NCBI GenBank assembly: GCA_946413985.1
Contig: CAMKMS010000005.1
Coordinates: forward strand, 1-54,849
DNA: 54,849 nt
Source: an uncultured Mycoplasmatota bacterium
GTDB lineage: Bacteria > Bacillota_I > Bacilli_A > RF39 > UBA660
Reading direction: 5' to 3'
Below are positions 14,636 through 37,657 of the stretch, one piece after another. The number at the start of each line of letters is the position of its first letter. Within the stretch, counting starts at the first letter, position 1. Position numbers and translations under genes: made by a program. The notes beneath the pieces are model-generated. The model did no database searches and was not told the DNA's origin. It saw only the letters and a list, made by a program, of their open reading frames with translations.

Positions 14636-16918
14636 ATGAAGAAAAAATTAATATTTTGTATATTAATAACTTTATTGTGCTTCCTACCTCTATCAGTTAA
14701 AGCTGACTTTGATGCTTATATTAATGATAATTATGTAAATATTAGAAAAAAACCAACTACAGATTCTACTTCACTATTTAAAGTTAACAAAGGAACAGAA
14801 ATAAAAGTAGTTAGTAAAAAACTATATTCTGGAAAAGGATGTTCAAATAAATGGTATAAAATAAAATATAATGATAAAACTTGCTACGTTTGCTCAACAT
14901 ATGTGAGTTTTAAAAGTTCAGCATTTAGTGGAATTAATGTTGTTGATTGGACAGCAAGAGTTGATTCTAATAATACTACTGTTAGAAAAAGTGCAACTAC
15001 TAATTCTGATGCTATTTCAACACTAACTCTTGGAGCAAATGTTGAAATTATTTCAACTGTTACTGCAAAAAATTCTGGATGTTCTACAGATACATGGTAT
15101 AAGATAAAATATTACATTAACAAAACAGGTTATATTTGCTCAAAATATGTTACAAAAAAAGAAAGTATAACTGCAACTGATGAAGAATATGCTCAAGTAT
15201 TAAAAGAAGAAGGATTTCCTGATAGTTATATTCCATATTTAACATACTTGCATAAAAAATATCCAAACTGGTCATTTAAAGCTAAAAATACAAATACTAA
15301 CTTTGCTGATGCTGTTGATGCAGAAGAAGGTTTAAATTATATGCAAACTACAAATAATAATTATAGAACTTCTACTGTACCAGCTGAAGGATCATCTTGG
15401 TATAGGATTAATGCAGGTGTAATTGCATTCTATATGGATCCAAGAAATTGGCTTTCAAGAGAAAGAATATTTATGTTTGAAAAACTAGATTATGCAAATA
15501 ACTACGAAGAAATATATTTAGACTTAGTTAAATCCCTATTTGGAGATGGAGCACTTGGTGATGAAAAATATACTGTACCTATGTGTACATATGGTAAACA
15601 ATATAAGGTAAGTCCTCTTCATATAGGAAGTAGAATAAGACTAGAAGTTGGTAAAAACGGAAGTCATTCAACTGATGGAAAAGAATTTACTTATAAAGGA
15701 AAAACATATAGCGGATATTATAATTTCTTTAATATAGGTGCCTATCCTCAAACTATTGATGGTGTTGAATATTCAGCTATCACAATGGGTCTTGTAAAAG
15801 CTAGAAGAAATGGATGGAATACAATAGAAAAATCAATTGAAGGTGGTGTTCAATTCCTAGCTAATGGTTATATTACTAAAGGTCAAGGAACACTATACTA
15901 TCAAAAATTTAATGTTTCACCTGATTCAGAAGAGTTTTCAACTAAGTACTTACATCAATATATGACAAATATTCAAGCTCCAGCTACAGAAGGAAATCAA
16001 AATTATAATTCATATAAAGAAGCAGAAATATTAAGTAATCCATTTATATTTGAAATACCAGTTTATAATAATATGCCGGATTATACTTCCCTACCTGCTT
16101 CAGGAGATGCAGATAATTCACTTAAATCATTAACTGTTGAAGGCTATTCAATTGAACCAACATTTGATCCAGACGTATTAAATTATGAAGTAAATATTCC
16201 AAGTAATATTGAAAAAGTAAAAGTAAGTGCAGCATCTACATCTAAAAAAGCAAAAGTTGTAGGAACTGGAGAAATCGAAATAAGTGAACAAAATACTATT
16301 GTTACAATCATTGTTACTTCAGAAGTTGGAGAAGAAAATAAATATGTATTAACAATTATAAGAAATGAAAGTGAAAACAATAACAATGATGATAATAATG
16401 GCAATAATAACAATAATGATGATAATAATGGCAATAATAGCAATAATGATAATAATAATCCAGCAGAAGAAATTCCAACTATTACTTATAAATCAATTAA
16501 AGATATATTAAAAGATTCTTCCATTGAAGTATCAAGTACAAATATTACAAATATAAAATATAATGTTAAAGCATCAACCTTATTAAATAAACTTACAAAA
16601 AATGGAGCAAATACAGTTGTAATTAAAGATAAAAATAATAAAAAATTAACTGATAGTGCTTTAGTTGGAACAGGATCAACTATTACAATAACTAGTGGAG
16701 ATGCAACTGAAACATATACATTAATAGTTATTGGGGATACTTCAGGTGATGGAAAAATCACTATGCTTGATTTATTACAAGTATTAAAGCACATAAAAGG
16801 TGATAAAAAATTAAAAGGTGTATATTTTAAATCAGCTGATACATCATTAGATAGTAAAATTACTATGCTTGATTTATTAAAAATACTAAAGCATATAAAA
16901 GGTGATAAAAAACTATAG
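14636..16918 (+). CDS. Secreted SH3/glucosaminidase autolysin with C-terminal dockerin
   Basis: 760 residues. Order: signal peptide (1-23), two bacterial SH3 domains (~24-90 and ~100-175), an endo-beta-N-acetylglucosaminidase domain (LytD/GH73-related, ~185-465) with INAGVIAFYMDPRNWLS and YYNFFNIGAYP, a cadherin-like beta-sandwich domain (~498-575), an Asn/Asp linker (~581-608), an unassigned beta domain, and a dockerin type I module (~700-760). The dockerin has two calcium loops, DTSGDGKIT and DTSLDSKIT, each followed by MLDLL-x-(I/V)LKHIKGDKKL. It should cut peptidoglycan glycan strands and be held at the surface through SH3 and dockerin contacts. The next gene, ten bases on, carries a cohesin-like domain. 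The start has a GGAGGTGTG ribosome site. Confidence 0.85.
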   Translation: MKKKLIFCILITLLCFLPLSVKADFDAYINDNYVNIRKKPTTDSTSLFKVNKGTEIKVVSKKLYSGKGCSNKWYKIKYNDKTCYVCSTYVSFKSSAFSGINVVDWTARVDSNNTTVRKSATTNSDAISTLTLGANVEIISTVTAKNSGCSTDTWYKIKYYINKTGYICSKYVTKKESITATDEEYAQVLKEEGFPDSYIPYLTYLHKKYPNWSFKAKNTNTNFADAVDAEEGLNYMQTTNNNYRTSTVPAEGSSWYRINAGVIAFYMDPRNWLSRERIFMFEKLDYANNYEEIYLDLVKSLFGDGALGDEKYTVPMCTYGKQYKVSPLHIGSRIRLEVGKNGSHSTDGKEFTYKGKTYSGYYNFFNIGAYPQTIDGVEYSAITMGLVKARRNGWNTIEKSIEGGVQFLANGYITKGQGTLYYQKFNVSPDSEEFSTKYLHQYMTNIQAPATEGNQNYNSYKEAEILSNPFIFEIPVYNNMPDYTSLPASGDADNSLKSLTVEGYSIEPTFDPDVLNYEVNIPSNIEKVKVSAASTSKKAKVVGTGEIEISEQNTIVTIIVTSEVGEENKYVLTIIRNESENNNNDDNNGNNNNNDDNNGNNSNNDNNNPAEEIPTITYKSIKDILKDSSIEVSSTNITNIKYNVKASTLLNKLTKNGANTVVIKDKNNKKLTDSALVGTGSTITITSGDATETYTLIVIGDTSGDGKITMLDLLQVLKHIKGDKKLKGVYFKSADTSLDSKITMLDLLKILKHIKGDKKL
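16376..16459 (+). repeat. Asn/Asp/Gly-coding tandem repeat
   Basis: A 30-bp unit encoding NNNNDDNNGN occurs twice and then partly a third time, forming the disordered linker before the C-terminal domains of the autolysin. AAT/GAT-type repeats of this kind can expand or contract in frame. Confidence 0.8.
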
Positions 16919-16928
16919 GAGGACATAA

Positions 16929-18386
16929 ATGAAAAAAATAATTAAAGGATTATTTATATTATTATTTGGATTATTAATTTCATTTTCTAACACTTCAAAA
17001 ATACTTGCTGCTTCTGCGTCTATAAGTGTTTCATCTTCTTCAAGCAAAGTTGTGATTGGAAATACATTTAAAGTATACTTTAGTGTTTCATCCTCTTCAC
17101 AAATAGGTACTGTAGAATTTACTCCTAGTTATGATAAAAATGTATTAAAACTTGTAAGTGGTGAAACTCATATTTATGATTATAAAATTGCTGGAAGCAA
17201 ATCAAAAACTTATACTTATACTTTTAAAGCAATAAGCAGTGGTTCAACAAAGATAAGTGTTAAGAGCTATGAAATAATTGGATATAATGAAAGTAGATTA
17301 TCAACAAATGTTTATAGCAAAACTATTAGTGTTATTACTCAATCACAATTAGAAGCATCATATTCAAAAAACAATGATTTAAAAAGTTTAAAAATTGAAG
17401 GACTAACTCTTAGTCCTAAATTTGATAAAAATACTCTTAAATACACAACTAATGCTGGCGCAAATACTACTAAAATAAAAATAACAGCAGTAGTAGATGA
17501 TTCTAGATCTAAAGTAAGTGGAACTGGAACAAAAAAAGTTAGTGAGGGAGAAAACGTATTTAAAATAATTGTTACAGCTCAAAATGGAAGTACTAAAACA
17601 TATAAAGTAGTCGTTAATGTAGTAGATCCAAATCCAATTGAAGTAGTAATAAATGATCAAAAATATATAGTTGTTAAAAGAGAATCTAATTTAGAAAAAG
17701 TAAATGATTTTCAAAAGAAAACAATTAAAATAAATGATCAAAGTGTACCTGCCCTATTTAATGAAGAGAACAATATTACTCTTGTCGGTCTTAAAAATAG
17801 CGAAGGTAGTATTGAATACTATATTTATAATAAAGAAGATAATACATATAAAAAATTTAATGATATTACTCTTTCAAAATTAAGAATTTTACCATTAGAT
17901 ATGGATAAAATGATTAATGATTATAAAAAAGAAGTAATTAAAATAGATAATATTGATGTTGAGTCATTAAATATAAATGATCACATATTTATTATTAAAG
18001 CTAAAAATTTTGATACAGCAGAAGACGACTATTACTTTTATGATATAGATAACAATTCTGTAATAAAATATTATGAAAGTGAAAAAAATGATAAACCAAT
18101 TATAGTTAATACAGATGTATCAAATTATAAAAAAATTATATTGCTCCTTGGAATAGAAACAGTTTTCATAATTTTTATACTAATATGTATATTAATTAAG
18201 AAAGTGATTAAAAATAAAAGAAAGAGAGCATATATACAAAGGAAAATAGAAGAAGAAAAAAATCGTATAGAAGAAGTTAACAAATTAAAAGATGAAATTA
18301 AAGAATTAGAAAATAAAAATAAATCTTCTAGAACAAGGAATAAAAAGAAAGAAGTGTCAAAGGATGAAATCAAGAAAAAGAAATAA
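16929..18386 (+). CDS. Membrane-anchored cohesin-like surface protein
   Basis: 485 residues: signal peptide (1-28), a Ser-rich beta domain (~29-135) resembling cohesins (IGTVEFTPSYDKNVLKLVSG, then SGSTKISVKSYEIIG), a cadherin-like beta-sandwich (~145-235) with NDLKSLKIEGLTLSPKFD, an unassigned region (~240-400), one membrane helix (~415-440) and a cytoplasmic, Lys/Glu-rich coiled-coil tail. Its cadherin-like domain is clearly related to that of the preceding autolysin. Adjacent dockerin and cohesin-like modules suggest that this protein docks the autolysin at the membrane. The start follows an AGGAGG site. Its 3' end overlaps the LCP gene by 23 bases. The cohesin call is by pattern and could instead be a generic Ig-like fold. 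Confidence 0.65.
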   Translation: MKKIIKGLFILLFGLLISFSNTSKILAASASISVSSSSSKVVIGNTFKVYFSVSSSSQIGTVEFTPSYDKNVLKLVSGETHIYDYKIAGSKSKTYTYTFKAISSGSTKISVKSYEIIGYNESRLSTNVYSKTISVITQSQLEASYSKNNDLKSLKIEGLTLSPKFDKNTLKYTTNAGANTTKIKITAVVDDSRSKVSGTGTKKVSEGENVFKIIVTAQNGSTKTYKVVVNVVDPNPIEVVINDQKYIVVKRESNLEKVNDFQKKTIKINDQSVPALFNEENNITLVGLKNSEGSIEYYIYNKEDNTYKKFNDITLSKLRILPLDMDKMINDYKKEVIKIDNIDVESLNINDHIFIIKAKNFDTAEDDYYFYDIDNNSVIKYYESEKNDKPIIVNTDVSNYKKIILLLGIETVFIIFILICILIKKVIKNKRKRAYIQRKIEEEKNRIEEVNKLKDEIKELENKNKSSRTRNKKKEVSKDEIKKKK

Positions 18387-20307
18387 ACTTATTAGATTAT
18401 TTGCAAGTTTCTTATTCATAGTTATAGAACTAATGTCATTAATATTAATTACATATTCTATAATACTATATAAGAATGTAGAAACATTTTATAGATGTTT
18501 TGCAATTCTAATATTAGTTTATTTCTTTTTCTTTTTATCTTACCTACTTTTACGAAGTATAAAATTACAAAGTAAAAAATCTATATTAATACCAGTAATT
18601 GTATCAATAATAATTTCATCTATTTCATTTGGAGGATATTATTATTTAAGTCAAATTTACTCAAAAATGAATCAATATGGTGACAGTAAAAATATGTACT
18701 ATAGTTTACTTGTAACATATAATACAGAATTAAATAGTGAAAAAGACTTAAAAAATATGAAAATTGGTATTATTAATGATACTAATGATATCATAGGAAA
18801 TATTCTTCCTAATGAAACAATTAAAAGTTTAAAATTAAATAAAGAAAATAAAATAGTTGAATATGAATCATATGTAGAATTATTACATGCCTTAAAAAAT
18901 AAAAAAATAAATGCAGCTTGGTTAAGTAAAGATTATGTTGAAAACTTTAGTGGAATGGATGGATTTGAAAAAATAAAAGAAGAAACTAAAGTTTTATACA
19001 CAGCTAAAAAAGAATACAATAGTAAAGATGAAGATATAAAAAGTGAAACTGCATCACTTGATAAACCATTTAGTATGTTATTAATTGGTGTTGACTCTGA
19101 AACTAGTGGAGTTACTTCAGGAGTAAATGCAGATGTATTACTCTTAGTTACTTTTAATCCTGAAACACTAAGAGCAACTCTAACTAGTATTCCAAGAGAT
19201 ATGTACATAAAAACAGCATGTTCAAATGGAAATTATAGAAGAATTAATACTACTACACTTGGAAGTGCATATACATGTGCTGTTGAAACAGTTGAAAACC
19301 TATTTGATGTAAATATAGATTATTATGCAAAAATCAACTTTAAAGGAGTTGTTAAATTAGTAAATGCTGTGGGCGGAATAGATGTTAAAGTTGACTACTC
19401 TATTTGTGAACAAAATAGTTCAAGGAAATGGGGAAACAAAACAGTATTTGTTGAAAAAGGAAATCAACATTTAAATGGAGAACAAGCATTGGCCCTAGCA
19501 AGAAATAGACATAAGCCTAATGATGGAAGTTATATAGGAGATAAAATGGCACAGTACTGCCCTACTTACAATAAAGGAACGAGAAATGATTTTACAAGAG
19601 GAAAAAATCAAATGAAAATAATAATGGGAATTGCTAATGCTGCTGTAAAAACGAAGGATCCAAATAAATTATTATCAATAATGGATTCCATAAAAAAGAA
19701 TTTTCAAACAAACATAACTAGTAAAGATATATTAAAATTATACAATTTAGCAAAATCTATGGTTATTTCTGATAGTACAAACTTAGTAAACATAGAAAGA
19801 TTACAACTTGCTGGATATAATGTTAATGTAACTGGTGGAATTACAATATTTGATCCTGTTTTAGGAAAATATAAAGAAGACTATGGTTATCCACAAGTAA
19901 CTATTCCATATAAAGGAAGTATAGAAGATATAAAAGATGCTATAAAGAATAATTTAAATAATACAAGTATTAAAGCAATAACAAAAATATCATTTGATAT
20001 TGATAATCCTTATACAATCACTATTATAGGTGATAAAACTTATAAAGAAGATAAAGTTACTACACTTAAAAACCTATCATCTTATTCACTTGATGAAATA
20101 AGAACATATGCTTCTAAAAATGGATTAAGTGTCAAATTTATTGATAAAGATACAAACAAAGAGATAAATGATTTGGATAGTTATACTTTTAGTTCTCAAA
20201 AAGAACATGTATATACAATACTAGATCAAATAGATACTTTAACAATTTATGTTAAACAAAAAATAACTTATAATGAGCAGATAGAAGAAACACAAAGCAC
20301 AGAATAA
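18364..20307 (+). CDS. LytR-CpsA-Psr (LCP) family wall polymer ligase with extra N-terminal domain
   Basis: 647 residues: three N-terminal membrane helices (~10-105), an extracytoplasmic segment (~125-215) that reads like a solute-binding-protein lobe (KIGIINDTNDIIG, ELLHALKNKKINAAWLS), then the LCP catalytic domain (~230-430). LCP hallmarks are LLIGVDSE, GVNADVLLLVTFNP, TSIPRDMY, NAVGGIDV and LNGEQALALARNRH; the Arg and Asp residues bind the pyrophosphate lipid. About 200 C-terminal residues follow with PASTA-like repeats uncertain. LCP enzymes transfer lipid-linked teichoic acid or capsule to peptidoglycan, matching the divergent polymer cluster. It is the last gene of a three-gene operon and is followed by a strong terminator. 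Confidence 0.9.
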   Translation: MKSRKRNKLIRLFASFLFIVIELMSLILITYSIILYKNVETFYRCFAILILVYFFFFLSYLLLRSIKLQSKKSILIPVIVSIIISSISFGGYYYLSQIYSKMNQYGDSKNMYYSLLVTYNTELNSEKDLKNMKIGIINDTNDIIGNILPNETIKSLKLNKENKIVEYESYVELLHALKNKKINAAWLSKDYVENFSGMDGFEKIKEETKVLYTAKKEYNSKDEDIKSETASLDKPFSMLLIGVDSETSGVTSGVNADVLLLVTFNPETLRATLTSIPRDMYIKTACSNGNYRRINTTTLGSAYTCAVETVENLFDVNIDYYAKINFKGVVKLVNAVGGIDVKVDYSICEQNSSRKWGNKTVFVEKGNQHLNGEQALALARNRHKPNDGSYIGDKMAQYCPTYNKGTRNDFTRGKNQMKIIMGIANAAVKTKDPNKLLSIMDSIKKNFQTNITSKDILKLYNLAKSMVISDSTNLVNIERLQLAGYNVNVTGGITIFDPVLGKYKEDYGYPQVTIPYKGSIEDIKDAIKNNLNNTSIKAITKISFDIDNPYTITIIGDKTYKEDKVTTLKNLSSYSLDEIRTYASKNGLSVKFIDKDTNKEINDLDSYTFSSQKEHVYTILDQIDTLTIYVKQKITYNEQIEETQSTE

Positions 20308-30166: not shown

Positions 30167-30192
30167 AAAATATCTAATAAATTAGATATTTT
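30167..30192 (-). terminator. Terminator after the dockerin-bearing pilin-like gene
   Basis: A perfect 12-bp stem (30167-30178 with 30181-30192) overlaps the stop codon. The 2-base gap means the inner A-T pairs must open to form the loop. A T-rich tract follows on the minus strand. It isolates this gene from the assembly operon promoter just downstream. Confidence 0.75.
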
Positions 30193-31009
30193 AATTTGCT
30201 GGAGTTGCTGTATCAAGTACTTTTTCCATTTGGTCCAAATCACTTAAGTCTACTTTGCCATCATTAGTAACATCAGCAATAACAAATTGTTTAGGTGTTA
30301 AAGCAGTTTTACAATTAGAATTGTTAACACATTTTCTGATTATTTTAACATCTAATTCTGAAAATTCTCCATCTCCATTAACATCTAATGGTACTTCACT
30401 ATATAATGCTTTCTTTAATATAATCAAATCTTTATTATCACAATCTTTATCACCATTTACATTTATTACTGACGCATATTTTCCACAAGCTCCTCCATTA
30501 GTTCTAATGAATTGTTCTATTGAAGTAATATCAGCCTCACTAAAATTACCATCTCCATCATAGTCACCAGTTGATGTTGAATAAATTATATTATACTCTC
30601 CAGTTGATTCTGTTGTTTCTAAAATACCAGTAATAAAAGTATTAATTTCTAAATCAATACTATTATCTTTTATAGTAGTTTCTCCAGTAGTAGTTTTAAT
30701 CCTAATAGTAGCTTTAGGTGGATACTCATATATATCATAAAAATCTAGTTGATATGTTCTATCTGGATTTACACTTTCTGCAAATCTTCTAGTAAATACA
30801 GAAACGAATTTTTCTCTAGACATAACTAGTTTACCAGATTTCATATAAGTTCCATAATCAACAGCATCATACATAGATGCTCTTAGTATTTCTCTACTTA
30901 AATAATAATCTTGCTCATTTGTACTAGTTAAATTTTGCACTAAGAATAATATTACTACTATAAATACTCCTAAAGCAATAATTAAATAGCCCCACATGGA
31001 TTCTTTCAT
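30191..31009 (-). CDS. Pilin-like protein carrying dockerin-type calcium repeats
   Basis: 272 residues: short leader MKESMWG, one hydrophobic helix (~8-25), a beta-rich extracellular domain (~30-140), then four dockerin/EF-like calcium loops at about 148-265: DYDGDGNFSEAD, NVNGDKDCDNKD, DVNGDGEFSELD and DVTNDGKVDLSD, each followed by a helix. That is two dockerin type I modules in series, with extra Cys. The leader plus helix match the other pilin-like proteins of the locus, so this could be a minor or tip pilin presenting a dockerin. The partner cohesin might be the protein at 16929. No other family is evident. Confidence 0.72.
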   Translation of the reverse strand: MKESMWGYLIIALGVFIVVILFLVQNLTSTNEQDYYLSREILRASMYDAVDYGTYMKSGKLVMSREKFVSVFTRRFAESVNPDRTYQLDFYDIYEYPPKATIRIKTTTGETTIKDNSIDLEINTFITGILETTESTGEYNIIYSTSTGDYDGDGNFSEADITSIEQFIRTNGGACGKYASVINVNGDKDCDNKDLIILKKALYSEVPLDVNGDGEFSELDVKIIRKCVNNSNCKTALTPKQFVIADVTNDGKVDLSDLDQMEKVLDTATPAN

Positions 31010-33997: not shown

Positions 33998-34023
33998 AAG
34001 AGAAAGAATTAAATCTTTCTCTT
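33998..34023 (-). terminator. Terminator of the Cys-rich protein gene
   Basis: A perfect 10-bp stem (33998-34007 with 34014-34023) around a 6-base loop overlaps the stop codon. On the minus strand it is followed by a T-run. Confidence 0.85.
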
Positions 34024-37000
34024 ATTTTTTATTATCTGCATTAACATTACCATAATATCCAGTTGCATACTCAGAAGAGTTTCCTCTTAGAATATCTAAG
34101 AAATAACTATGGCAATTATAATAATATCCATCTTCTGAATCCTTTTCACAATTGTATATTAATTCATCAGAATAACTACCATTAAGAGCATTAAACTCTT
34201 TAATATTTTTTGTTTGTGTTGGATTTATTGTTACACTAAAATCTAAATATTCATTATCAGTACTATATTTATTAGAATTTGCTTCAATAAATTCTTTTAT
34301 AATTAATCCTTTAGCAGTACTCCAGTTTGATTTTTCTTTTACTCCTGAAGGGAATAAATTTGCTGGATCAACATTTCTATATAAAGCTGCTGATTTTTCT
34401 TCACATGTAGGTTTAGATGGATCATCACAATTAGGTTTTTTAACATCAACATAACATGTAAATGTATTATTCTCATTTATTGTTAATTTTCCAGCAGTTT
34501 CATTTCTATAGAAAGACAATGGATTTAGAACTTGTGAAACTACGCATCTATGATATACGCCATTTTCAAGAGAAGTTCTACATGCATCTAAATTATATGC
34601 ATTTTTATCAATTGGATAAGAGAAGCTTGGTAATGTCAATAAGCTAGAATTAGTATTTCCAGGTACTACTTTTCCACTTCCATAATCTGCTTGATATTTA
34701 TTATTGTTATAATAATTAATTTCTGATGTAACTGTAAATCTTGCATAATCATTTGTTGGAACATCTATATTCTTACCACCAAATAATGTATATGTTTTCT
34801 TTGATGCTGGTCTATTAGCTGGATAATTATATGATGCTGCATCATTATTAGAATCATATCCATAACACAAGTTACCACTTTTATCTTTACAATAACTTAT
34901 TGAAGATAGCTTACCAGTAAATACAGATGTATTACTTACATTATTTATTCGATTATTATTATCTTTATTTATTGCACCAAATTCATATTTAACATTATAT
35001 GCGTGAGTCTGAGCAGTTTTATTTCCTTCTCTATCAGAACCCAAACCATAATTATTGCTTTCTTTATATATATTCTTAACTTTACTTATTAAAGTTGTTT
35101 TATAATTCTTAGGTATTTCTACCCCAGCATCTTTGATAGTCTTTTCACTATAGAAGTTACAATTATATATATCATATATGATTTGATTTAATACTTCTTC
35201 TCTTTCATTTTCTGAAGAATATTTTTCTTTTAATACATTAAATAATCCTGCGAATGTTTTACTTTGTTTTAGTTTTGCAAATTCTTCATCTGTTAGACCA
35301 TAATCAGTCTTAAAGTCATCTAGATTATATAAATGACTATAATATATTTCAGATAAACATGTTCTCTTCTCTTTAACTACACTAGTCAATTTATAATTCA
35401 ATTCTTTTGTATTCTTTGCAGGGAATTCTATATCATACATAAATGTTCTTCCTGATATTGCTTTAACTTTATCAGCAAGTACATATTCTGCTTCATCACT
35501 ACAATAAACTCTACAGAAGTTAGTATTTACTCCAAAATAGCTACTATAATCATATCTATTTTTAGCAGAAGGCTCTTCTAAATTAACAATACATTTTAAT
35601 GATGGATCTTTTACTTTTGTACTATATATACCATTATAGTTATTTTGATCATTTTCACATGAATCTTTTCCTTCTATTCTTAAACTAGCATCATTACATC
35701 CACCATCACATTTATAATTTGTTACTGAGAATGTTGTTACTGCTTCGTCTCTTCCAACTTCTGTTGCCTCTCCTAAACCACTATCTGAATCATCATCATC
35801 TTTAAAGAATGCGAATAATGTTTGATTAACATTTGCATTTGCACATGAATAGTATTTTCTAACACTATAACTACTCTTTTCTCTTTGATATTTAACTTTT
35901 ATTTCAATATCTTTTCCACTATTATTCATAATATCACAAATTGCAAATTTAAATGTTGTAGTTCTACATCCAAAATGCTTAATACATTTCTTAATATCTT
36001 GTTCATCTACAATAACATTTCCATCTTCATCTGTAACAGTTACTTTTACTTGACAATAAGGTTTAATTTGATTAATTATAGCATCTGCTTCACTAGCAGT
36101 TTTACCTTCTCTAATTAATTTAGTTCTTAATTCAGCTAATTTAGCATCACTACACTCAACTTCTTCATCTTTGATTTCATCCCAGAACTCTTCATGTTCA
36201 AATGTAACTTCTACCCATGTTTCTACTGAAGAAGATGAAGTTGATTCTTCAAAACTATATTCACTTTGTAATGTTGCTGCTGTTGGTTTTGAACCATTAC
36301 CTCCACCATACAACTTACTCAAGTGATTTTTCATATATTGATTTCCAATTAAAGTATTAAAGTAAAGTTCAAATGCCACTCTGTAATCAGCATTTGGTTC
36401 AGTGCCACACATAACACCTCTCATCTTTTTAACTTTAGTCATATTACGTAACTCTGAAGTTGTTAAACATGCAATTGCTTCAAATGTATTACCATTTAAT
36501 TCTCCTCTTGTATTTCCATTTTCTTCAGGAGGAATATGATCCATTAGTCTTGCTACATCATAAAATTTATCTTTTGCTACAACCATTATATAATCATGAG
36601 TTTGTTTATAAACATTAACATAATCATTATTTTCATCAGTTGTAAAATATGTTACAGTCTTACAATCCTCACCAGTTAAATTAGCAACACCAGTTTTATC
36701 AAATCCAGTTTGACCTGAATGAACACTCCAAAGTCTTAAAGCAGTGTTAATTGCCTTATCACTTGTATTATAATAAGCTCCTTCAATTAATATATTTGCG
36801 TATCCACAATCTACTGTACTATAACTACTTGCACAGTCAAATACATTGAATGAATCATCATATTGATAGTTATCAGATTCACCATTTTGATAAAATGGTT
36901 GACTTGGGTTAACACAATAAGCTGGTTGACCTGCTATATCAAAATCTGGTGTACAAAGTGAAAAGTTTTTATAAGTTCTATCACATATATATAAAGGACA

Positions 37001-37657
37001 TTGTAATGTATAATCTGCAGTACATGTTCCATTTCCAAAATCAGCTTTTGCTTCTGCAACTACATCTTGACCTGCTGTAACTGGATCATAATTATATTCT
37101 TTTGTTCTTGTACAGGTAGTACTTGAAGATAAACGTCCACTTGGACTAAAGCCATCAGGACAAGTGTAATAATTATATCCATTATTTCCACCACAAGAGC
37201 CCGGAGTACTTTCATCTCCTGCATTCCAACTACAACCACCAGTACACTCACTTTGACTCTTAGATGAACAATCATTAGCTTTATAATGATGAGTTGATGT
37301 TACAGTTTCAACACAAGTCACCTTAGCAGTTACTTTTCTTTCTGGATCTTTACACAAAGGTACTTTTTGACCTACAAGGCTTTTTGCATCTAAACTCTCA
37401 ACATAATGAATTACAAGAGAATCTCCAGCAGCTAATGCAGCATCATAAGAACTATATCCACTATGAGGTCTATAACCTTCAGCTCTTCTCCACTTACAAA
37501 CTGGTAATGTTGCATCAAATCCGGCATCTGTAATTCCTGTCTCAGTAATAGTAACCTCTTCATCATCTGAATTACATCTTAATGAAGCGTTAACATTACT
37601 TGTAAAAACAAATAATAAAGCTAGGGAAATTAATACTTTTAAAGTCTTCTTATTCAT
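34022..37657 (-). CDS. Giant Cys-rich secreted surface protein
   Basis: 1211 residues with a signal peptide (1-24) and dozens of Cys spread over the whole length; no LPXTG, membrane anchor or wall-binding repeat at the C-terminus. Near residue 245 AYCVNPSQPFY, followed ~60 residues later by INTALRLWSVHSG, resembles a thioester adhesin domain (TED) layout, but the expected Gln of the thioester bond is not obvious, so I do not call it TED. Other parts read as beta-sandwich-like modules separated by Cys-x-Cys motifs. It is co-transcribed with the anchored protein at 37662 (four-base gap) and next to sortase and pilus genes, so it is a candidate adhesin or pilus-associated surface subunit. Confidence 0.7.
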   Translation of the reverse strand: MNKKTLKVLISLALLFVFTSNVNASLRCNSDDEEVTITETGITDAGFDATLPVCKWRRAEGYRPHSGYSSYDAALAAGDSLVIHYVESLDAKSLVGQKVPLCKDPERKVTAKVTCVETVTSTHHYKANDCSSKSQSECTGGCSWNAGDESTPGSCGGNNGYNYYTCPDGFSPSGRLSSSTTCTRTKEYNYDPVTAGQDVVAEAKADFGNGTCTADYTLQCPLYICDRTYKNFSLCTPDFDIAGQPAYCVNPSQPFYQNGESDNYQYDDSFNVFDCASSYSTVDCGYANILIEGAYYNTSDKAINTALRLWSVHSGQTGFDKTGVANLTGEDCKTVTYFTTDENNDYVNVYKQTHDYIMVVAKDKFYDVARLMDHIPPEENGNTRGELNGNTFEAIACLTTSELRNMTKVKKMRGVMCGTEPNADYRVAFELYFNTLIGNQYMKNHLSKLYGGGNGSKPTAATLQSEYSFEESTSSSSVETWVEVTFEHEEFWDEIKDEEVECSDAKLAELRTKLIREGKTASEADAIINQIKPYCQVKVTVTDEDGNVIVDEQDIKKCIKHFGCRTTTFKFAICDIMNNSGKDIEIKVKYQREKSSYSVRKYYSCANANVNQTLFAFFKDDDDSDSGLGEATEVGRDEAVTTFSVTNYKCDGGCNDASLRIEGKDSCENDQNNYNGIYSTKVKDPSLKCIVNLEEPSAKNRYDYSSYFGVNTNFCRVYCSDEAEYVLADKVKAISGRTFMYDIEFPAKNTKELNYKLTSVVKEKRTCLSEIYYSHLYNLDDFKTDYGLTDEEFAKLKQSKTFAGLFNVLKEKYSSENEREEVLNQIIYDIYNCNFYSEKTIKDAGVEIPKNYKTTLISKVKNIYKESNNYGLGSDREGNKTAQTHAYNVKYEFGAINKDNNNRINNVSNTSVFTGKLSSISYCKDKSGNLCYGYDSNNDAASYNYPANRPASKKTYTLFGGKNIDVPTNDYARFTVTSEINYYNNNKYQADYGSGKVVPGNTNSSLLTLPSFSYPIDKNAYNLDACRTSLENGVYHRCVVSQVLNPLSFYRNETAGKLTINENNTFTCYVDVKKPNCDDPSKPTCEEKSAALYRNVDPANLFPSGVKEKSNWSTAKGLIIKEFIEANSNKYSTDNEYLDFSVTINPTQTKNIKEFNALNGSYSDELIYNCEKDSEDGYYYNCHSYFLDILRGNSSEYATGYYGNVNADNKK

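Follow-up and report, generated by a model that had tools for sequence, protein, structure and literature searches.

Two neighbouring genes in a 54,849-nucleotide stretch of contig CAMKMS010000005.1 (the window) from an uncultured Mycoplasmatota bacterium encode what is, with a probability of roughly 0.8, a two-part, membrane-tethered, SagB-like peptidoglycan glucosaminidase held by a cohesin-dockerin lock. The source is a metagenome-assembled genome of 1.19 Mb that is 77% complete. Pairs of this kind are known for holding together cellulosomes and certain complexes of secreted glycosidases. Since the dockerin of the hydrolase and the cohesin of the receptor are inherited together and change together, the cell probably holds this wall-cutting enzyme at the membrane by the lock. 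The computed support consists of domain identities, adjacency, co-divergence, interface couplings, a co-fold of a homologous pair and the swapping of the catalytic domain, and from it we infer the actual binding, its calcium dependence, the location of the activity and the physiological role. The first-pass annotation had predicted a docking pair at the cell surface, a claim now sustained by gene adjacency, cohesin identity, co-divergence, interface coupling, the homologue co-fold and the joint absence of both modules in two relatives.

Domain identities of the hydrolase and the receptor

The two genes and their features are as follows (coordinates in the window):

14636..16918, + strand: gene of the dockerin-bearing peptidoglycan hydrolase, 760 amino acids
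15191..16075, + strand: glucosaminidase catalytic region, hydrolase residues 186-480, SagB match
16121..16363, + strand: Cadherin-like beta-sandwich PF12733 of the hydrolase, residues 496-576
16733..16897, + strand: type-I dockerin with two calcium loops, DTSGDGKITMLD and DTSLDSKITMLD
16929..18386, + strand: gene of the cohesin-bearing membrane receptor, 485 amino acids
16929..17012, + strand: receptor signal peptide, about residues 1-28, position predicted from the sequence
17013..17336, + strand: cohesin domain, residues 29-136, from PF00963, the homologue profile and the homologue fold
17382..17618, + strand: Cadherin-like PF12733 of the receptor, residues 152-230, E 1.4e-9
17634..18104, + strand: conserved extracellular region of two similar halves, residues 236-392, from the alignment, no Pfam name
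18132..18203, + strand: single transmembrane segment, about residues 402-425, position predicted from the sequence
18204..18383, + strand: Lys-rich, coiled-coil-like cytoplasmic tail, unconserved among relatives

The hydrolase is composed of a signal peptide, two SH3_3 stretches, a SagB-like glucosaminidase, a Cadherin-like domain, an Asn/Asp-rich linker and a C-terminal type-I dockerin; besides the dockerin, the Pfam scan matched both SH3_3 stretches and PF12733. Dockerin_1 (PF00404) was matched at residues 700-754 (E 8.6e-8) with 32.7 bits, above the curated cut-off of 22.9, and both calcium loops are present, with paired recognition residues and an Asp at positions 1 and 12 of each loop. 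Judged by its sequence, the C-terminus is a genuine two-loop type-I dockerin, as had been noted for this glucosaminidase before. The residues at loop positions 10-11 (ML) are identical in the two repeats of the window dockerin. Among the homologues, the recognition residues of the two repeats showed an agreement of 0.89 within a protein versus 0.47 between proteins, and the other loop positions agreed in 51% and 33% of cases, respectively. Because both repeats carry the same recognition residues, dual-mode binding is predicted. The NCBIfam model of SagB, NF052642, matched hydrolase residues 241-452 with an E value of 9.6e-13 and 47.9 bits against a cut-off of 425, and on this match the catalytic domain is similar to SagB rather than its equivalent.

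In the full-length receptor, the Cadherin-like domain alone exceeds its Pfam cut-off. PF00963 (Cohesin) was matched at positions 17037-17279 in the single-genome search with E 8e-4 and 19.4 bits against a cut-off of 24.1, and when searched as a lone domain the same region gave 22.3 bits (E 1.6e-4), with Cohesin as the best-scoring family. Among the aligned homologues, Cohesin was matched in 33 of 33 (best E 2.2e-10) and was the sole Pfam family common to all of them; many receptor proteins of relatives surpass the Cohesin cut-off. Searched against the sequences of the PDB, the profile of these 33 sequences retrieved at the top almost entirely cohesins (ScaB 3l8q, E 3.5e-5). Furthermore, the predicted fold of a homologue, on which the comparison was made instead of the window copy, matched the Clostridium perfringens cohesins 2jh2 and 2vo8 with a Z score of 13.4 and a root-mean-square deviation of 2.2 over 110 residues, and cellulosomal cohesins with Z scores of about 11-12.4 over about 110 residues (1ohz_A, 11.5). 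For the dockerin, the fold match was 8x39 (Z 13.0). Given the family matches, the PDB retrieval and the fold match, the first domain of the receptor is, on the strength of sequence profiles and a modelled fold, a divergent but real cohesin, and in the window's class of receptors this beta domain scores as a cohesin and not as a generic Ig-like domain. For that class, a generic Ig domain or a chance match was rejected on the profile, the 33 of 33 matches, the fold and the interface couplings.

The rest of the receptor was likewise largely as first annotated: the signal peptide, cohesin-like domain, Cadherin-like domain and membrane anchor were all recovered, and the coiled-coil tail is present in the window protein but is no shared feature of its relatives. 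The basic stretch that follows the transmembrane segment (positive-inside) places the C-terminus in the cytoplasm. A conserved signalling role of the tail was considered and dropped, as the tail is variable in length and missing in some homologues.

Inheritance and co-divergence of the pair

We surveyed 145 genomes of the same family and examined 80 receptor loci in detail. The receptor was matched in 110 of the 145 genomes (roughly 90 near full length, as counted from the listing), and in 79 of the 80 loci a two-loop dockerin closes the gene directly upstream, which in most cases overlaps the receptor gene or lies at most 30 bp from it; the one exception is a locus of the genus, described below, in which two genomes lack this dockerin. 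Loci from a further collection (uncultured Bacilli, Tenericutes and Erysipelotrichaceae metagenome-assembled genomes, mostly from animal gut, searched with a 9-row alignment) brought the number of distinct receptor loci to 152. In the order as a whole, the receptor profile matched 241 of 288 genomes at E<=1e-15, some of these matches being to the cadherin domain only. The catalytic domain was found in none of 22 receptor-negative genomes, while the same query finds it in 76 of the 80 receptor-positive loci; in the remaining four, a GH73 glucosaminidase domain (PF01832) replaces it and the dockerin is kept. Only one dockerin match was present in 63 of the 109 dockerin-positive genomes.

The same type of receptor also occurs in two other families of the class, again behind a peptidoglycan hydrolase with a dockerin; the catalytic domain was PF01832 in eight of the ten proteins scanned (one of the eight scoring slightly under the cut-off), GH25 in L241 and SagB-like in L250. 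Thus the cohesin-dockerin unit persists across families of Bacilli while the catalytic domain of the hydrolase is exchanged. Two receptor homologues without a cohesin (L252:4349-5395 and L254:3521-4501) have no neighbouring dockerin gene either, so that lock and key are missing together. As a separate observation, a second receptor copy in genome G149 adjoins a dockerin-bearing M6-type peptidase (L257:422-3358), and a subtilase with a C-terminal dockerin (L256:4894-7815) lies beside or near a cohesin-like/cadherin membrane protein; the docking scheme recurs with proteases at these two loci.

Distance matrices over 147 dockerin-cohesin pairs were then used to follow co-divergence. Dockerin distances correlated with those of the partner cohesin (r 0.733) far better than with those of the hydrolase's own catalytic domain (r 0.371) or of the receptor cadherin domain adjoining the cohesin (r 0.326). 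The partial correlation of dockerin and cohesin given the other three domains was 0.65, with a permutation maximum of 0.12, and it was 0.50 within the main class and 0.62 after thinning of close relatives. On the tree of the other domains, crude class labels changed 14 times for the dockerin, 11 times for the cohesin and 16 times for the joint label, so that many changes of dockerin and cohesin coincide.

The strongest column couplings between the two proteins link cohesin strands 3, 5 and 6 with positions 10, 17 and 18 in each of the two dockerin repeats. Numbered on the construct of a homologous pair (L037), the coupled cohesin residues are L130, G131, W133 and Y135 on strand 3, V153 on strand 5 and Y168 and F170 on strand 6, together with L146 (strand 4) and K143. 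The contact surface of cohesins for dockerins we take to be the 8-3-6-5 sheet, on which strands 3, 5 and 6 lie. Of the 40 top coupled pairs, 14 join this face to a recognition position (2.3 expected), and 24 involve recognition positions for the cohesin compared with 11 and 8 for two control domains of the receptor, which show no comparable enrichment and are the better yardstick, since the coupling p-values carry no correction for phylogeny. The coupled residues lie at the interface known from other cohesin-dockerin complexes.

Co-folding models

Since the two genes of the window lie in different reading frames, co-folding was done on the homologous pair L037, whose dockerin, stop, signal peptide and cohesin were translated as a single chain under NCBI table 6 simply to bring both domains into one model. 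The AlphaFold2 model (209 residues, 78 aligned rows) had a mean predicted local distance difference test score (pLDDT) of 91.4 and a predicted template modelling score (pTM) of 0.81, with a low-confidence, disordered linker at about residues 70-97. By our own reckoning, a pTM of about 0.5, the share of the larger domain, would be expected if the domains were undocked, and the observed, near-maximal value points to confident docking. The model output was a pTM without contact positions. It backs the predicted docking as such, and it is the residue couplings that suggest a contact at the dockerin helices.

In a divergent class of receptors, represented by L089, the co-fold gave a pLDDT of 90 and a pTM of 0.75, with a shorter Ig-like sandwich as the partner of the dockerin. 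As this sandwich is about equally like Ig domains and cohesins, the model is consistent with docking and the name cohesin is not assignable to it.

It is very improbable that the N-terminal domain of the window receptor is a mere spacer of the generic Ig-like kind, with the dockerin as a partnerless cap stabilised by calcium. This would fit a window copy below the Pfam cut-off and a divergent class resembling generic Ig domains, but not the Cohesin matches in all 33 homologues, the fold Z score of 13.4, the co-divergence, the interface couplings or the co-fold pTM of 0.81.

Several observations weigh against the cohesin-dockerin lock as we read it. The window cohesin itself falls just under the Pfam cut-off; the co-fold was obtained from a 40%-identical homologue as one chain through a stop, the window pair being out of frame; and the partner sandwich in L089 matches generic Ig-like domains (Z about 10) about as well as a cohesin (Z 9.0). 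Furthermore, in two genomes of one genus (G066 and G294, loci L082 and L291) a cohesin-like receptor is kept beside a hydrolase that stops after the catalytic domain and has no dockerin, and the genome search found no dockerin match anywhere in G066. Finally, the genome of the window, which is 77% complete, encodes one more membrane protein with a cohesin-like domain (L289) and one more dockerin-like protein (P0003), so that the pair may not be exclusively 1:1.

The L289 protein (L289:1237-2358), encoded on another contig, has a signal peptide, a cohesin-like domain, a Cadherin-like domain and a single transmembrane segment, with no dockerin gene adjacent, and no convincing match was found between its cohesin-like domain and the cohesin profile of the pair. 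P0003 (window 30191-31009, - strand) is a DUF5411 protein with three dockerin-like calcium loops after a transmembrane segment, and lies in a Tad/Flp pilus-type locus with T2SSE ATPase and RcpC/CpaB neighbours. P0003 is possibly a second dockerin-type system, and L289 could partner either P0003 or something else. Relatives (G010, G126, G083, G131 and others) encode surface proteins of about 2,800-3,000 amino acids with cohesin and dockerin matches in one chain.

These proteins raise the question of whether the true partner of the hydrolase dockerin is another cohesin, in L289 or in surface adhesins, with the adjacent receptor binding something else and the adjacency reflecting a shared function at the wall. 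A second cohesin-like/cadherin/transmembrane protein in the same genome, large proteins with both matches in several relatives and the genus that retains its receptor without a dockerin would all be accommodated. Nevertheless, we consider this quite unlikely, as the dockerin co-diverges specifically with the cohesin next to it, the coupled residues sit on the interface, most dockerin-positive genomes have a single dockerin match, and lock and key are jointly absent in L252 and L254.

Proposed mechanism and relation to known systems

For the membrane-tethered glucosaminidase we propose that the hydrolase would be secreted via its signal peptide and that its SH3 domains may contact the wall. Its C-terminal calcium-loop dockerin would dock with the cohesin at the receptor's outer end, in a dual mode via either repeat, and the receptor stalk, formed by the cadherin-like and the duplicated domain, would keep the enzyme close to the membrane. 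Tethered in this way, the enzyme might trim glycan strands near their site of synthesis rather than diffuse off.

The lock shares with the type I pairs of cellulosomes (Clostridium thermocellum 1ohz and 2ccl; Clostridium cellulolyticum 2vn5 and 2vn6, with a dual binding mode) the cohesin fold and a two-calcium-loop dockerin with the recognition positions 10/11 and internal symmetry. In contrast to cellulosomes, it would join one membrane-protein cohesin and one peptidoglycan hydrolase, instead of a multi-cohesin scaffoldin and enzymes acting on plant polysaccharides. In its own, incomplete genome (77%), the single cohesin match lies in a single-cohesin protein and no multi-cohesin scaffoldin was found; the dockerin matches there are confined to the hydrolase and the pilus-locus protein, with no dockerin-bearing enzymes for plant polysaccharides. 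A cellulosome identity was rejected on the failure to find either component in the genome.

Non-cellulosomal cohesin-dockerin complexes have been described for glycoside hydrolases of C. perfringens (PMC12997984). The single, non-cellulosomal cohesins 2jh2 and 2vo8 of this species are the nearest by fold to the window-type cohesin (Z 13.4). However, there the secreted glycoside hydrolases themselves carry the cohesins or dockerins (PMC12997984), whereas the window encodes a dedicated membrane receptor and a peptidoglycan enzyme. The nearest functional analogy is offered by SagB-SpdC of Staphylococcus aureus, in which a membrane-held glucosaminidase determines the length of the glycans and has been proposed to free nascent strands (PMC12272431). 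The two systems have in common a SagB-like catalytic domain and the idea of a membrane-held glucosaminidase. The likeness is one of analogy, since the catalytic domain is no more than SagB-like and the membrane partners are unrelated: SpdC belongs to the CAAX-protease family and is integral to the membrane, while the partner here is a single-pass receptor with a predicted cohesin-dockerin contact. The adjacent gene (cohesin, cadherin, single transmembrane segment) is not an SpdC-type partner, and the genome was otherwise not searched for SpdC.

The rarity of links between cohesin-dockerin pairs and peptidoglycan hydrolases outside cellulosomes, remarked on in the first-pass annotation, is a fair statement that needs one qualification, namely that dockerin-bearing cell wall hydrolases (the 'lyticome', including a lysozyme of Ruminococcus champanellensis) have been reported in cellulosome producers (PMC6403190). 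These are peptidoglycan hydrolase-dockerin fusions as in the window, but they attach to scaffoldins, whereas the pair described here is a stand-alone two-gene unit in genomes of about 1.2 Mb, most of them with a single dockerin match. The lyticome discussion (PMC6403190) and the relative in which a second receptor is paired with an M6 peptidase-dockerin protein might suggest a miniature lytic cellulosome directed against other bacteria or food glycans and not against the cell's own wall. This is improbable in view of the one cohesin and one anchor near the membrane, the catalytic domains (SagB-like or GH73) of the kind usual in autolysins, and the presence of one pair per genome in most relatives.

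In searches of the open-access literature, no account came up of a one-to-one membrane receptor dedicated to a peptidoglycan hydrolase. Most likely, the membrane-tethered glucosaminidase puts a known pair of modules to a new use outside cellulosomes: the pair appears as a one-to-one, vertically conserved unit that stands alone and serves the cell's own wall in more than 100 genomes of mostly uncultured gut bacteria. This suggests how such bacteria control wall cutting near the membrane, and that the lock need not have originated for the degradation of plant fibre. In addition, about 150 co-evolving cohesin-dockerin pairs provide a natural set for studying or engineering binding specificity. 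We give even odds to a broader proposal, that a calcium-dependent cohesin-dockerin lock is the general membrane tether for an exchangeable peptidoglycan hydrolase in a large group of small-genome gut Bacilli and in related families of the class, with specificities that co-evolve and with some sockets that are now Ig-like and unrecognisable as cohesins, a new variant of the dockerin-binding fold serving wall growth and not food degradation.

Gene neighbourhood

The hydrolase and receptor genes are followed by a third gene on the same strand:

18364..20307, + strand: gene of an LCP (LytR-CpsA-Psr) glycopolymer transferase, 647 amino acids, with a 23-bp overlap with the receptor gene

The order of the three forward open reading frames (14636-16918, 16929-18386 and 18364-20307), the 10-base gap between hydrolase and receptor (16919-16928) and the LCP gene closing the set are all present in the sequence as first annotated. 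Divergent from this operon lie TagF-like, IspD-like, GpsA-like and TagO-like teichoic-acid genes. From this arrangement it had been suggested that docking places wall cutting at sites of polymer attachment. In the 80 loci, an LCP gene is adjacent in 32, with 19 divergent upstream and 13 downstream matches, and a TagO-like gene is nearby in 19; TagF-like, IspD-like and GpsA-like genes occur in 0-2 and other wall-polymer genes in 0-9. The suggestion was therefore abandoned as a general feature, as it rests on a neighbourhood of the window that is unconserved in relatives. Consequently, a real pair whose receptor chiefly recruits the hydrolase to attachment sites, with LCP as a partner, is unlikely: the overlap of the LCP and receptor genes and the divergent teichoic-acid genes speak for it in the window, but across the loci the LCP gene is found in a minority and on either side, and the other wall-polymer genes are rarer still.

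Elsewhere in the window, a protein of 1,211 amino acids without a Pfam match at E 0.01 is encoded near the Tad-type cluster (34022-37657, - strand).

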